A stretch of DNA of 64,000 bases, from positions 1,508,154 through 1,572,153 of the forward strand of contig NZ_CP036271.1 in NCBI RefSeq assembly GCF_007745175.1. The letters run 5' to 3'. Shown one piece after another: positions 47,264 to 49,619 of the stretch; positions within the stretch are counted from its first letter, which is position 1; each line of letters starts with the position of its first letter. This DNA is from Caulifigura coniformis. GTDB lineage: Bacteria; Planctomycetota; Planctomycetia; Planctomycetales; Planctomycetaceae. A program made the translations under genes and the position numbers. The notes beneath the pieces were generated by a model. That model was not told the DNA's origin. It worked only from the letters and a program-made list of their open reading frames with translations, and ran no database searches.

Positions 47264-48451
47264 ATGGCGAAGAAGACGATCAGCAGCGTGGATGTCAAAG
47301 GCAAGCGGGTCCTGATGCGCGTGGACTTCAACGTCCCCCAGGACGATGCGGGAGCGATCACCGATGACCGCCGCATCCGGATGGCTCTGCCGTCCATCAA
47401 GTCGGTCGTCGACCGCGGCGGCAAGCTGATCCTGATGAGCCACCTCGGCCGCCCCAAGGGCGAAGGCAACGACGCCAAGTTCACCCTGAAGCCCGCCGCC
47501 ATCCGCCTCGGTGAGCTCCTCGGCAAGTCCGTCCAGTTCGCCACCGACACCGTCGGCCAGGACGCTGAGACGAAAGTCGCCGGCCTGAAGGATGGCGATG
47601 TCCTCGTCCTCGAGAACGTCCGCTTCCAGAAGGAAGAGCAGAAGGGCGACGCCGGCTTCGCCGCCAAGCTCGCCGCCTTCGCCGACGTCTACTGCAACGA
47701 TGCCTTCGGCACCTGCCACCGCGAAGACGCGTCGATGGTCGCCGTCCCCCGCGCCATGGGCGCGAAGCCCAAGGTCGTCGGCGGACTCGTCGAAAAGGAA
47801 ATCACCTACCTCAGCGACGTGATGTCGAAGCCGGCCCGGCCGTTCGTCGCGATCGTCGGCGGTGCCAAGGTCTCCGACAAGATCCTCGTCATCGAAAACC
47901 TGCTCAAGGTCTGCGACCTCGTCCTCATCGGCGGAGCAATGGCCTACACCTTCGCCAAGGCCCAGGGCGGAAACCTCGGCAAGAGCCGCGTCGAAATGGA
48001 CAAGCTCGACCTCGCGAAGGAACTGATCGCCAAGGGGGGCGCGAAGCTTATGCTCCCGGTTGACACCCACTGCGGCGACGACTTCAAGTCGACCTGCAAC
48101 AAGGTCGTCGTGAAGTTCGGCCAGGTTCCGGACGGCTTCGAAGGCCTCGACATCGGCCCCGAGACCGCGAAGCTCTACGCCGAAAAGGTGAAGTCGGCGA
48201 AGACGGTTGTCTGGAACGGCCCGATGGGCGTCTTCGAAATGCCGCCGTTCGACGCCGGCACGAAGGCCGTCGCCCAGGCGATTGCCGATTCCGATGCGAC
48301 CAGCATCATCGGCGGCGGCGACAGCGCGGCCGCGATTGAGCAGTTCGGCATGGCCGACAAGGTCACGCACGTCAGCACCGGCGGCGGGGCCAGCCTCGAA
48401 ATGCTCGAAGGCAAAAAGTTCGCGGCCGTCGAGCTCCTCGACGAGGCGTGA
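47264..48451 (+). CDS. pgk: Phosphoglycerate kinase
   Basis: Pgk interconverts 1,3-bisphosphoglycerate and 3-phosphoglycerate with ATP/ADP in glycolysis. The 395-residue protein has the N-terminal substrate motif [14 protein letters not shown], the [11 protein letters not shown] loop, the GGAKVSDKI strand and the nucleotide-binding [13 protein letters not shown] near the C-terminus. The start ATG (47264) has a TGAGGA site seven bases upstream; the frame is open 45 codons more without conservation. Gene length is normal. It is followed by a REP-like palindrome. Confidence 0.96.
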
Positions 48452-48457
48452 TCAAAC

Positions 48458-48481
48458 GTAGGGTGCGTCGCGACGCACCTT
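48458..48481. repeat. REP-like palindrome, left flank of the RAYT gene
   Basis: The 24-base element reads GTAGGGTGCGTC then GCGACGCACCTT and can fold into a stem of GGTGCGTC/GACGCACC with a two-base loop. The reverse complement of the right-flank element (49074-49097) is identical except for one base in the loop. Confidence 0.78.
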
Positions 48482-48526
48482 CCTGCGATTGAGAACAACT
48501 CTCCCTTATGCAAGTGGCCCTTCGCG

Positions 48527-49075
48527 ATGAGCAACTATCGTCGCAATCGCGAAGGCTCCGTCTACTTTTTCACCGTCGTGACGCATCACCGCCGGCCGAT
48601 CCTGACAACAGAGATCGGCCGACGTTGTTTACGCAGCGCGATCCAGAGCGTCCGTCGGGATCGCCCGTTCGAAATCATTGGAATCGTTCTCCTTCCCGAT
48701 CACGTCCATACGGTTTGGGAACTGCCACCAGGCGATTCGGATTACTCAACCCTCTGGCGTCGAATCAAGGGGCTGTTCACGACCGCGTGGCTGGCGGCGG
48801 GCGGTACGAGTTCGGGCGTCACCAAGAGCCGTTCTGAACGCGGTGAGCGCGGAGTCTGGCAGAGAAGGTTCTACGAACACACCTGTCGGGATGACTCAGA
48901 CGTCAAACGCTGTCTCGACTACCTGCACGTCAATCCGCTGAAGCACGGGCTCGTGACACGGGTGCGTGACTGGCCCTGGTCGTCGTTTCACAGACATCAG
49001 CGGCTTGGTGAATACGACATCGGCTGGGGCGATGCCTCCGTCTGGTATGGAGATGAGTTTTCGCAGTTCGAGTAA
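48527..49075 (+). CDS. REP-associated tyrosine transposase (RAYT)
   Basis: This is a 182-residue Y1 HUH transposase of the TnpA_REP type. The HUH motif is DHVHTVW (His 59, His 61) and the catalytic tyrosine is Y132 in [13 protein letters not shown]. RAYTs cut and mobilise REP hairpins dispersed in bacterial genomes. Their genes are commonly framed by inverted REPs, as here, where the two palindromes flank it and the right one overlaps its TAA stop codon. This protein is an ordinary size for the family and shows no frameshift. It probably acts on the copies of this repeat elsewhere in the genome. Confidence 0.9.
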
Positions 49076-49097
49076 GGTGCGTCTCGACGCACCCTAC
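49074..49097. repeat. REP-like palindrome, right flank of the RAYT gene
   Basis: The element starts inside the RAYT stop codon (AAGGTGCGTC then TCGACGCACCCTAC) and is the inverted copy of the left element. The palindrome GGTGCGTC/GACGCACC is perfect. Confidence 0.78.
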
Positions 49098-49133
49098 GGT
49101 CTACGGTTTCCATCGAATCCGCAGTGGACAGAC

Positions 49134-49619
49134 ATGCCGATGTCACCCCGCTTTCCAGCCGTATCGTCACCTCAGTCGGGTCCGTGCGTCGGCGTTGTCG
49201 GTGACGTCTACCGCATCCTCGTCAGCGGCGAGCAGACGGCCGGCGCGTACTCCGTCGTTGAAGCGATCGTCCCTCCCGGCAGCGGCCCGCCCCCTCATCG
49301 GCACTCGCGCGAAGACGAAGGCTTCTATGTCCTCGAGGGCGAACTCACGATCACCGTCGACGGCCGCCGCGAAACTCTGTCGCCCGGGATGTTCGGCAAC
49401 CTTCCCGTCGGCTCGTTGCACTTCTTCAGGAATGAAGGCAGCGTCCCCGTCCGGATGCTGATCACCGTCGCCCCGGCCGGGTTCGAACAGATGTTCATGG
49501 AAGTCGGCGTCCCGCTGCCCCCGGGATCGAAGAGCGCACCGCCGCCGTCGCACGACGACATCGCCAGGCTGCTCGAAGCCTCGAACCGATACGGAGTCGA
49601 GATCCAGCCGCCGGGCTGA
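49134..49619 (+). CDS. Cupin-domain protein
   Basis: The 161-residue protein is a single conserved beta-barrel cupin. The metal-site motif 1 is PPHRHSREDEGFYVLEGELTI and motif 2 is NLPVGSLHFFRNEG. Similar small cupins act as dioxygenases, isomerases or sugar-binding proteins. The start is placed at the ATG 49134; ATG 49140 is an equal candidate, since upstream residues come from the REP region. The end lies 10 bases before the stop of the convergent hydrolase gene. Confidence 0.82.
   Translation: MPMSPRFPAVSSPQSGPCVGVVGDVYRILVSGEQTAGAYSVVEAIVPPGSGPPPHRHSREDEGFYVLEGELTITVDGRRETLSPGMFGNLPVGSLHFFRNEGSVPVRMLITVAPAGFEQMFMEVGVPLPPGSKSAPPPSHDDIARLLEASNRYGVEIQPPG

Follow-up and report, generated by a model that had tools for sequence, protein, structure and literature searches.

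A RAYT gene between inverted REP palindromes downstream of pgk in a planctomycete: a probable REPtron with few REPs

RESULTS

Organization of the locus

The window, i.e. the whole 64-kb stretch of DNA that was analyzed, contains pgk, a RAYT gene and a cupin-domain gene in that order, all on the + strand, and the RAYT gene lies between two palindromic REP sequences. The features are as follows.

47264-48451, + strand: upstream neighbor, phosphoglycerate kinase (pgk; Pfam PGK, 1.8e-153)
48458-48479, + strand: left REP, GTAG head at 48458-48461 followed by a perfect 18-bp palindrome at 48462-48479, with the head directed away from the RAYT gene
48527-49075, + strand: RAYT gene, TnpA-REP-like HUH Y1 transposase of 182 aa, intact frame
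49076-49097, – strand: right REP, repeating the left one in inverted orientation, palindrome at 49076-49093 and GTAG head (CTAC on the + strand) at 49094-49097
49134-49619, + strand: downstream neighbor, small cupin-domain protein (Pfam Cupin_2, 3.3e-19 on 49137-49616), start codon provisional

The core of the left palindrome, GGTGCGTCGCGACGCACC, spans 18 bp with no mismatch. Over 22 nt the left and right REPs differ at only one of the two central bases, the single loop-base difference that a preliminary description of this DNA had noted, and the matching stretch extends to 25 nt with one mismatch (CGTAG...CACCTT). The same description had given the palindrome as 24 bp long and the right one as including the end of the stop codon. 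The core is 18 bp with a 4-nt head, and on the right it begins at 49076, the base after the RAYT stop codon, which is the TAA at 49073-49075. The stop is covered only if the right palindrome is extended to an imperfect 12+2+12 form (49072-49097, 92%).

On the other side, the stop codon of pgk is located at 48449-48451, and the left REP, which starts 7 nt past its last base, is presumed to lie within the pgk 3' untranslated region. A REP hairpin would accordingly be part of the pgk mRNA, close to the 3' end, and an effect on RNA stability is possible.

We computed the folding energies of the two REPs as single-strand DNA hairpins and obtained –8.0 kcal/mol for the left REP (z –2.5; 5 of 200 shuffles as good) and –9.3 kcal/mol for the right REP (z –3.6; 1 of 200 shuffles as good). 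Within the 64-kb window, the 16-mer GTGCGTCNNGACGCAC has two exact sites only, which are the brackets, and one further site with 2 mismatches; because shuffles at this 2-mismatch laxness give 3 matches in 6 out of 100 cases, only exact matches were counted. In the 6.76-Mb genome (one contig), the 18-mer occurs in 4 places, compared with approximately 0.008 expected from the base composition of the window, and a reversed-pattern control yielded 0. The palindromes are not a product of chance.

Properties of the RAYT protein

The protein scored 182.5 bits against the NCBIfam RAYT equivalog NF047646 (cutoff 80) and 32.2 bits against the IS200/IS605 equivalog, which is below the cutoff of 55; the Pfam Y1_Tnp match had an E-value of 3.6e-8. 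Among proteins of solved structure, E. coli TnpA-REP (PDB 4ER8, E 9e-38, residues 1-170) is the closest in sequence. A model predicted from a 29-sequence alignment (mean pLDDT 89.3) had 4ER8 as its top PDB match in Foldseek (E 2.6e-15), followed by the ISDra2 and IS608 transposases. The alignment with 4ER8 over residues 1-170, together with this top match, indicates a RAYT-type fold that includes the C-terminal extension.

On the basis of motif and alignment, we assigned D58-H59-V60-H61 as the putative HUH motif and Y132, within YLHVNP, as the putative catalytic tyrosine; H59, H61, Y132, N136 and P137 are invariant in the 29 aligned sequences. The tyrosine motif is Y132-LHV-N136-P137, i.e. Y---NP, and the Y---Q of IS200 is absent. 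Compared with the motif table of PMC6006769, the set DHVH / WQ / YLHVNP was nearest, as an inexact match, to the row of subclass 2.2 (group 2, E. coli type), which reads DHLH / WE / YIHYNP. In our judgement, the protein probably belongs to group 2, E. coli type.

The closest full-length relative (72%), found in the family genome G040, carries the exact 22 nt of the left REP on both sides. A dN/dS value of 0.09 between the two genes indicates purifying selection, with a dS of 2.6 that is near saturation; for three further relatives, dS was beyond estimate.

REP copies and other RAYT genes in the genome

The preliminary description had made its reading depend on further copies of the palindrome in the genome, and such copies exist. 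The exact 18-mer was found at about 529086-529090, in both brackets and at 3793234, and the pattern GTAGGGTGCG, 0-20 nt, CGCACC matched the same four sites and none further; a copy with one mismatch lies at 187075. Including the brackets, the genome thus contains 4 exact headed REPs, or 5 when one mismatch is allowed; of those outside the window, one is an exact solo REP, another carries a mismatch and the third adjoins a truncated RAYT gene. A high abundance of REPs, which is usual for a REPtron but does not define it, is not seen here, and this counts against the REPtron reading. Two REP-like sites with 2 mismatches (4156785 and 6282420) were set aside because they were at the noise level of the reversed-pattern control, which gave 2 forward and 2 reverse matches at up to 3 mismatches.

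Five more RAYT-like genes were detected in the genome (E 0.001).

3792853-3793230 (with the right REP, to 3793255): second RAYT, 89% identical, first third missing, 2.2 Mb from the window gene
2739295, 70289, 4920078 and 5169385: four divergent RAYT genes (23-34% identity), each flanked by inverted repeats of its own

Over their matched stretches, all five score above the RAYT cutoff of 80 (81.3-118.9 bits); the lowest score, that of the gene at 5169385, is barely above it (81.3). The repeats of the genes at 2739295 and 4920078 have a common GTTGCCGAGC part, and none of the repeat pairs of the four divergent genes has the head (GTAG) and the stem seen in the window REP. Two other REP types of the genome were sought in the 64-kb window, and none was found there. 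Repeats of the form GGGTGGCACTGG...CCAGTG give 21 pattern matches in the genome (e.g. 1617742, 1636999 and 2739156); the longer form brackets the RAYT gene at 2739295, and the shorter form is scattered more widely.

Matching of flanking repeats across RAYT loci

We compared 114 RAYT loci, comprising the window locus, the 4 divergent loci of the same genome, the best 80 of 193 loci from named genomes and 29 from family genomes. Nine of the 114 were dropped because of a short flank, a contig end or an internal stop, leaving 105, and 7 more were removed as at least 90% alike, leaving 98 non-redundant loci. The left and right flanks of the same locus matched at a score of at least 17 in 77 of the 98, compared with 2.0% of between-locus pairings, and for 58 loci the own partner flank was the unique best match. 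However, 21 loci fell below a score of 17, which counts against the REPtron reading.

We further searched the flanks for headed hairpins (GTRG head, arm of at least 7, loop of at most 22). Outward-headed hairpins were present on both sides in 52 of the 98 loci, and another 19 had one on a single side; 16 of 98 scored in the inward control, and shuffled flanks gave 0. The inward matches are probably due to the many flanks that hold paired REPs of both orientations. Nevertheless, 46 of the 98 loci failed the strict two-sided test and, with the non-zero inward control, this too counts against the REPtron reading. Among the 52 two-sided loci, the distances between stems were correlated with those between proteins (Mantel r 0.49, a value reached in 0 of 5000 permutations), a correlation that fits co-evolution and, equally, plain common descent.

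Two details of individual loci were also observed: L029 carries a GTAGGCTGGG-type REP stem, and both L049 and L093 have a second near-full RAYT gene within 1.5 kb (87% and 96% identical DNA, respectively), these being neighboring duplicates.

Distribution in family genomes and the site in the same genus

A relative of the window RAYT was found at E 1e-30 in 53 of 150 family genomes, and the exact headed REP in 23 of 150. The RAYT gene was present in 13 of the 23 REP-bearing genomes vs 40 of the 127 REP-less ones (Fisher p 0.02, uncorrected for kinship; hand count, with two listings taken as the same 150 genomes). Three of the 10 REP-only genomes (G011, G017 and G036) have a partial or weak RAYT match, which in G017 lies on a contig that also bears the REP. 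In G093, no RAYT gene was found at E 1e-30 and neither gene end at 1e-8, which counts against the REPtron reading. The modest co-occurrence and the REP-rich, RAYT-less G093 indicate that this REP and this RAYT type are only loosely coupled. The headed-REP pattern matched 113 times in G093, with overlapping matches counted on both strands, and many of the matches listed form inverted pairs separated by a few tens of bases.

In the only other genome of the genus that was compared, neither a RAYT gene nor a REP directly follows pgk. Similarity to this genome stops at the pgk stop codon, so the site is not a clean empty site, and the comparison at the pgk junction with this one genome demonstrated no empty site.

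A truncated paralogue with the same REP

The genome contains no second full-length copy of the window RAYT gene. The truncated gene at 3792853-3793230 is directly followed, at its 3' end, by the right-REP version. Between the two copies, 406 nt could be aligned with 50 mismatches, and these are unevenly placed: the first 57 nt are free of mismatches, as is the stretch corresponding to 49020-49098, which comprises the last codons, the stop codon and the whole right REP (longest mismatch-free run, p 0.0005 by permutation). Synonymous changes number 0 at approximately 23 sites in the two ends, compared with 34.5 at 63.8 sites in the middle (Fisher p 1e-6, rounded counts), and in the middle of the pair dS is 0.96, dN 0.07 and dN/dS 0.07. 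The ends are not simply conserved, because in 60-nt blocks over them the window gene and that of G040 share only 63-77% identity. Upstream of the break in the truncated copy lies another GC-rich, repeat-like sequence that, judged by eye, is self-pairing.

These results, from one pair of genes, suggest that both ends, right REP included, were recently exchanged through recombination or gene conversion. The pair would then consist of old paralogues that share one REP type and were long under selection, one of which was recently truncated. The preliminary description had taken the exact pairing of the palindromes as a sign of recent or active maintenance. Purifying selection between the copies and the probable exchange over the right REP lend this indirect support, but the REPs have hardly spread.

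Such an exchange is noteworthy because RAYTs are described as single-copy and non-mobile: as apparently incapable of self-mobilization and present in single copies in PMC3116915, and as mostly single-copy, with no evidence of mobility, for tnpA-REP in PMC8266576. In Table 1 of PMC6006769, subclass 2.2 has a mean of 1.5 copies and a mean identity of 42%. The single-copy, non-mobile view can accommodate such an exchange between old copies, which is no proof of movement. Old paralogues with one REP type that appear to have recently exchanged their ends nonetheless provide a concrete case for testing that view.

Arrays of RAYT 3' ends

Tandem arrays that include the end of a RAYT gene were found at two loci.

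C1:572408-573868 (L170 4409-5869): G040 array, 3' of the closest full-length RAYT relative
C1:70138-71425 (L008 1350-2647, L014): array in the genome of the window, 3' of the distant RAYT gene at 70289

The G040 array has a period of 221 bp and 5.0 copies at 97%, the gene's own end included, and each extra unit combines the final 195 nt of the gene with a REP. At 70289, three more copies of the last 154-162 nt of the gene (96-98% identical) are each followed by the gene's own REP, CGTTCCCAAGC...GCTTGGGAACG, which is shortened in one case. The RAYT at 70289, which scores 107.8 bits against the RAYT equivalog, is only 26% identical to that of G040.

A self-match scan of the 105 loci (flanks up to approximately 1.5 kb, E 1e-6) identified 12 loci with any self-match: multi-copy 3'-end arrays in 2 (L109 and L008), a single short 3' piece in 3 (L069, L104 and L123), 5' pieces in 4 (L125, L037, L038 and L044) and near-full or long second copies in 3 (L049, L073 and L093). 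We do not claim a bias toward 3'-end fragments, since 5' pieces and long second copies also occur. Searches with the C- and N-terminal ends in 170 family genomes detected orphan pieces of both ends, in counts blurred by contig ends; C-terminal-end matches were present in 57 of the 170, among which only G040 has a tandem array. Tandem arrays of REPs and of REPINs have been described (PMC3116915); arrays whose unit includes the RAYT gene's own end were not found in the literature searched, which was mostly open-access.

Three observations raise the idea that, in this lineage, the RAYT 3' end and the right REP form a separate module that can be amplified and can recombine: the truncated copy keeps the 3' two thirds with the right REP, the right REP appears to have been recently exchanged while the middle of the gene stayed old, and arrays of 'gene 3' end + REP' occur in two RAYTs of only 26% identity. 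If this were true and RAYT-driven, through one-ended cutting at the right REP, REPs would spread together with part of the gene for their own transposase. However, slippage or unequal crossing-over explains the arrays without any role of a transposase. Because this suffices and 5' pieces also occur, we regard the module as a speculative and rather unlikely possibility.

DISCUSSION

Interpretation of the locus

The locus is very probably a REPtron, i.e. an HUH/Y1 RAYT/TnpA-REP gene between two cognate, outward-headed REPs. This reading is based here on the gene, its motifs and predicted fold, the bracket, the locus-specific matching of REPs, selection on the protein and the second paralogue with the same REP. 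The layout that the preliminary description had recognized, with inverted REPs on either side of a RAYT gene, is borne out by the equivalog, 4ER8, the motifs, the inverted GTAG palindromes and the 77 of 98 loci. As a REPtron, it is classical and well-formed with few REPs, and the arrangement is already known; the locus thus offers a compact, low-copy RAYT-REP system.

By analogy with the work on E. coli TnpA-REP (PMC8266576) and with HUH enzymes in general, such a unit would act as follows. When the DNA is single-stranded, for example on the lagging-strand template, each REP would fold into a hairpin, and the RAYT protein would bind its GTAG head and stem. H59 and H61 would hold the metal, and Y132 would cut at a nearby dinucleotide to form a covalent intermediate, which might lead to excision, joining or copying of the REP.

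A first alternative is that the locus is a dead relic in which the RAYT system is no longer functional. The very small number of REPs in the genome and the loss of the 5' third in the second copy could be understood in this way. However, the frame is open with its catalytic residues intact, dN/dS is well below 1 and both REPs are hairpin-competent, and we therefore consider a relic improbable.

Could the locus instead be an ordinary IS200/IS605-type insertion sequence that still moves as a whole, with the hairpins as its transposition ends? This is very improbable, although the Y1 fold is common to both, the fold search placed the ISDra2 and IS608 transposases next after 4ER8 and a second copy lies 2.2 Mb away. 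The IS200 equivalog score is below the cutoff (32.2 vs 55), and the tyrosine motif is Y---NP here and Y---Q in IS200 (motifs from PMC6006769). Moreover, the second copy is not near-identical, as indicated by the dS of 0.96 in the middle, and the genome has one full-length copy and one 5'-truncated copy of 89% identity in place of near-identical full-length copies.

That the palindromes are terminators or RNA-stabilizing hairpins of the pgk or downstream transcript, with an incidental symmetry about the RAYT gene, accords with their positions 7 nt past the pgk stop and directly past the RAYT stop and with roles in termination and mRNA stability proposed for REPs (PMC3733652), but is extremely improbable given that there is no T-run, that a terminator scan called neither palindrome and that locus-specific matching, outward heads and changing stems recur across distant RAYTs.

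Comparison with known systems

Planctomycete GTAG repeats and RAYTs were already in print by 2013. PMC3733652 reports GTAG repeats in Planctomycetes and a great many tyrosine transposase genes in R. baltica that are flanked by repeats. The remark in the preliminary description that these units are poorly described in planctomycetes is therefore fair, but the field is not blank. By that paper's description, R. baltica resembles the present genome in having planctomycete RAYTs with flanking repeats and several repeat families per genome.

Class 3 TnpA-Y1 proteins, which PMC6006769 places chiefly in Planctomycetes, Acidobacteria and Proteobacteria, are likewise Y1 enzymes and, in planctomycetes, are flanked by REP-like structures. 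In that paper, however, they have NHVH / W[TA] / Y----Q and a CnGA foot, in contrast to DHVH / WQ / Y---NP and GTAG at the window locus.

The REPtron of Haemophilus parasuis, GTAGGGTGGGTCTTGACCCACC, has in common with the window locus a GTAG head and a perfect GC-rich palindrome with 2 central bases, in opposite orientations on the two sides of the gene (PMC2817692). It differs in its stem, its host phylum and its copy number (20-42; PMC2817692, Table 1).

The E. coli TnpA-REP system (group 2, 4ER8) is similar in predicted fold, HUH motif, YxxxNP motif, C-terminal region to residue 170 and GTAG-headed REPs. However, E. coli REPs require a bulge in the stem for activity (PMC8266576), whereas the REPs here have perfect 8-bp arms and a 2-nt center; the two E. 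coli REP forms number 4 to 126 copies depending on stringency (PMC2817692, Table 1), compared with about five here. The RAYT-REP design, which has been best studied in Proteobacteria, holds stem by stem in this planctomycete family.
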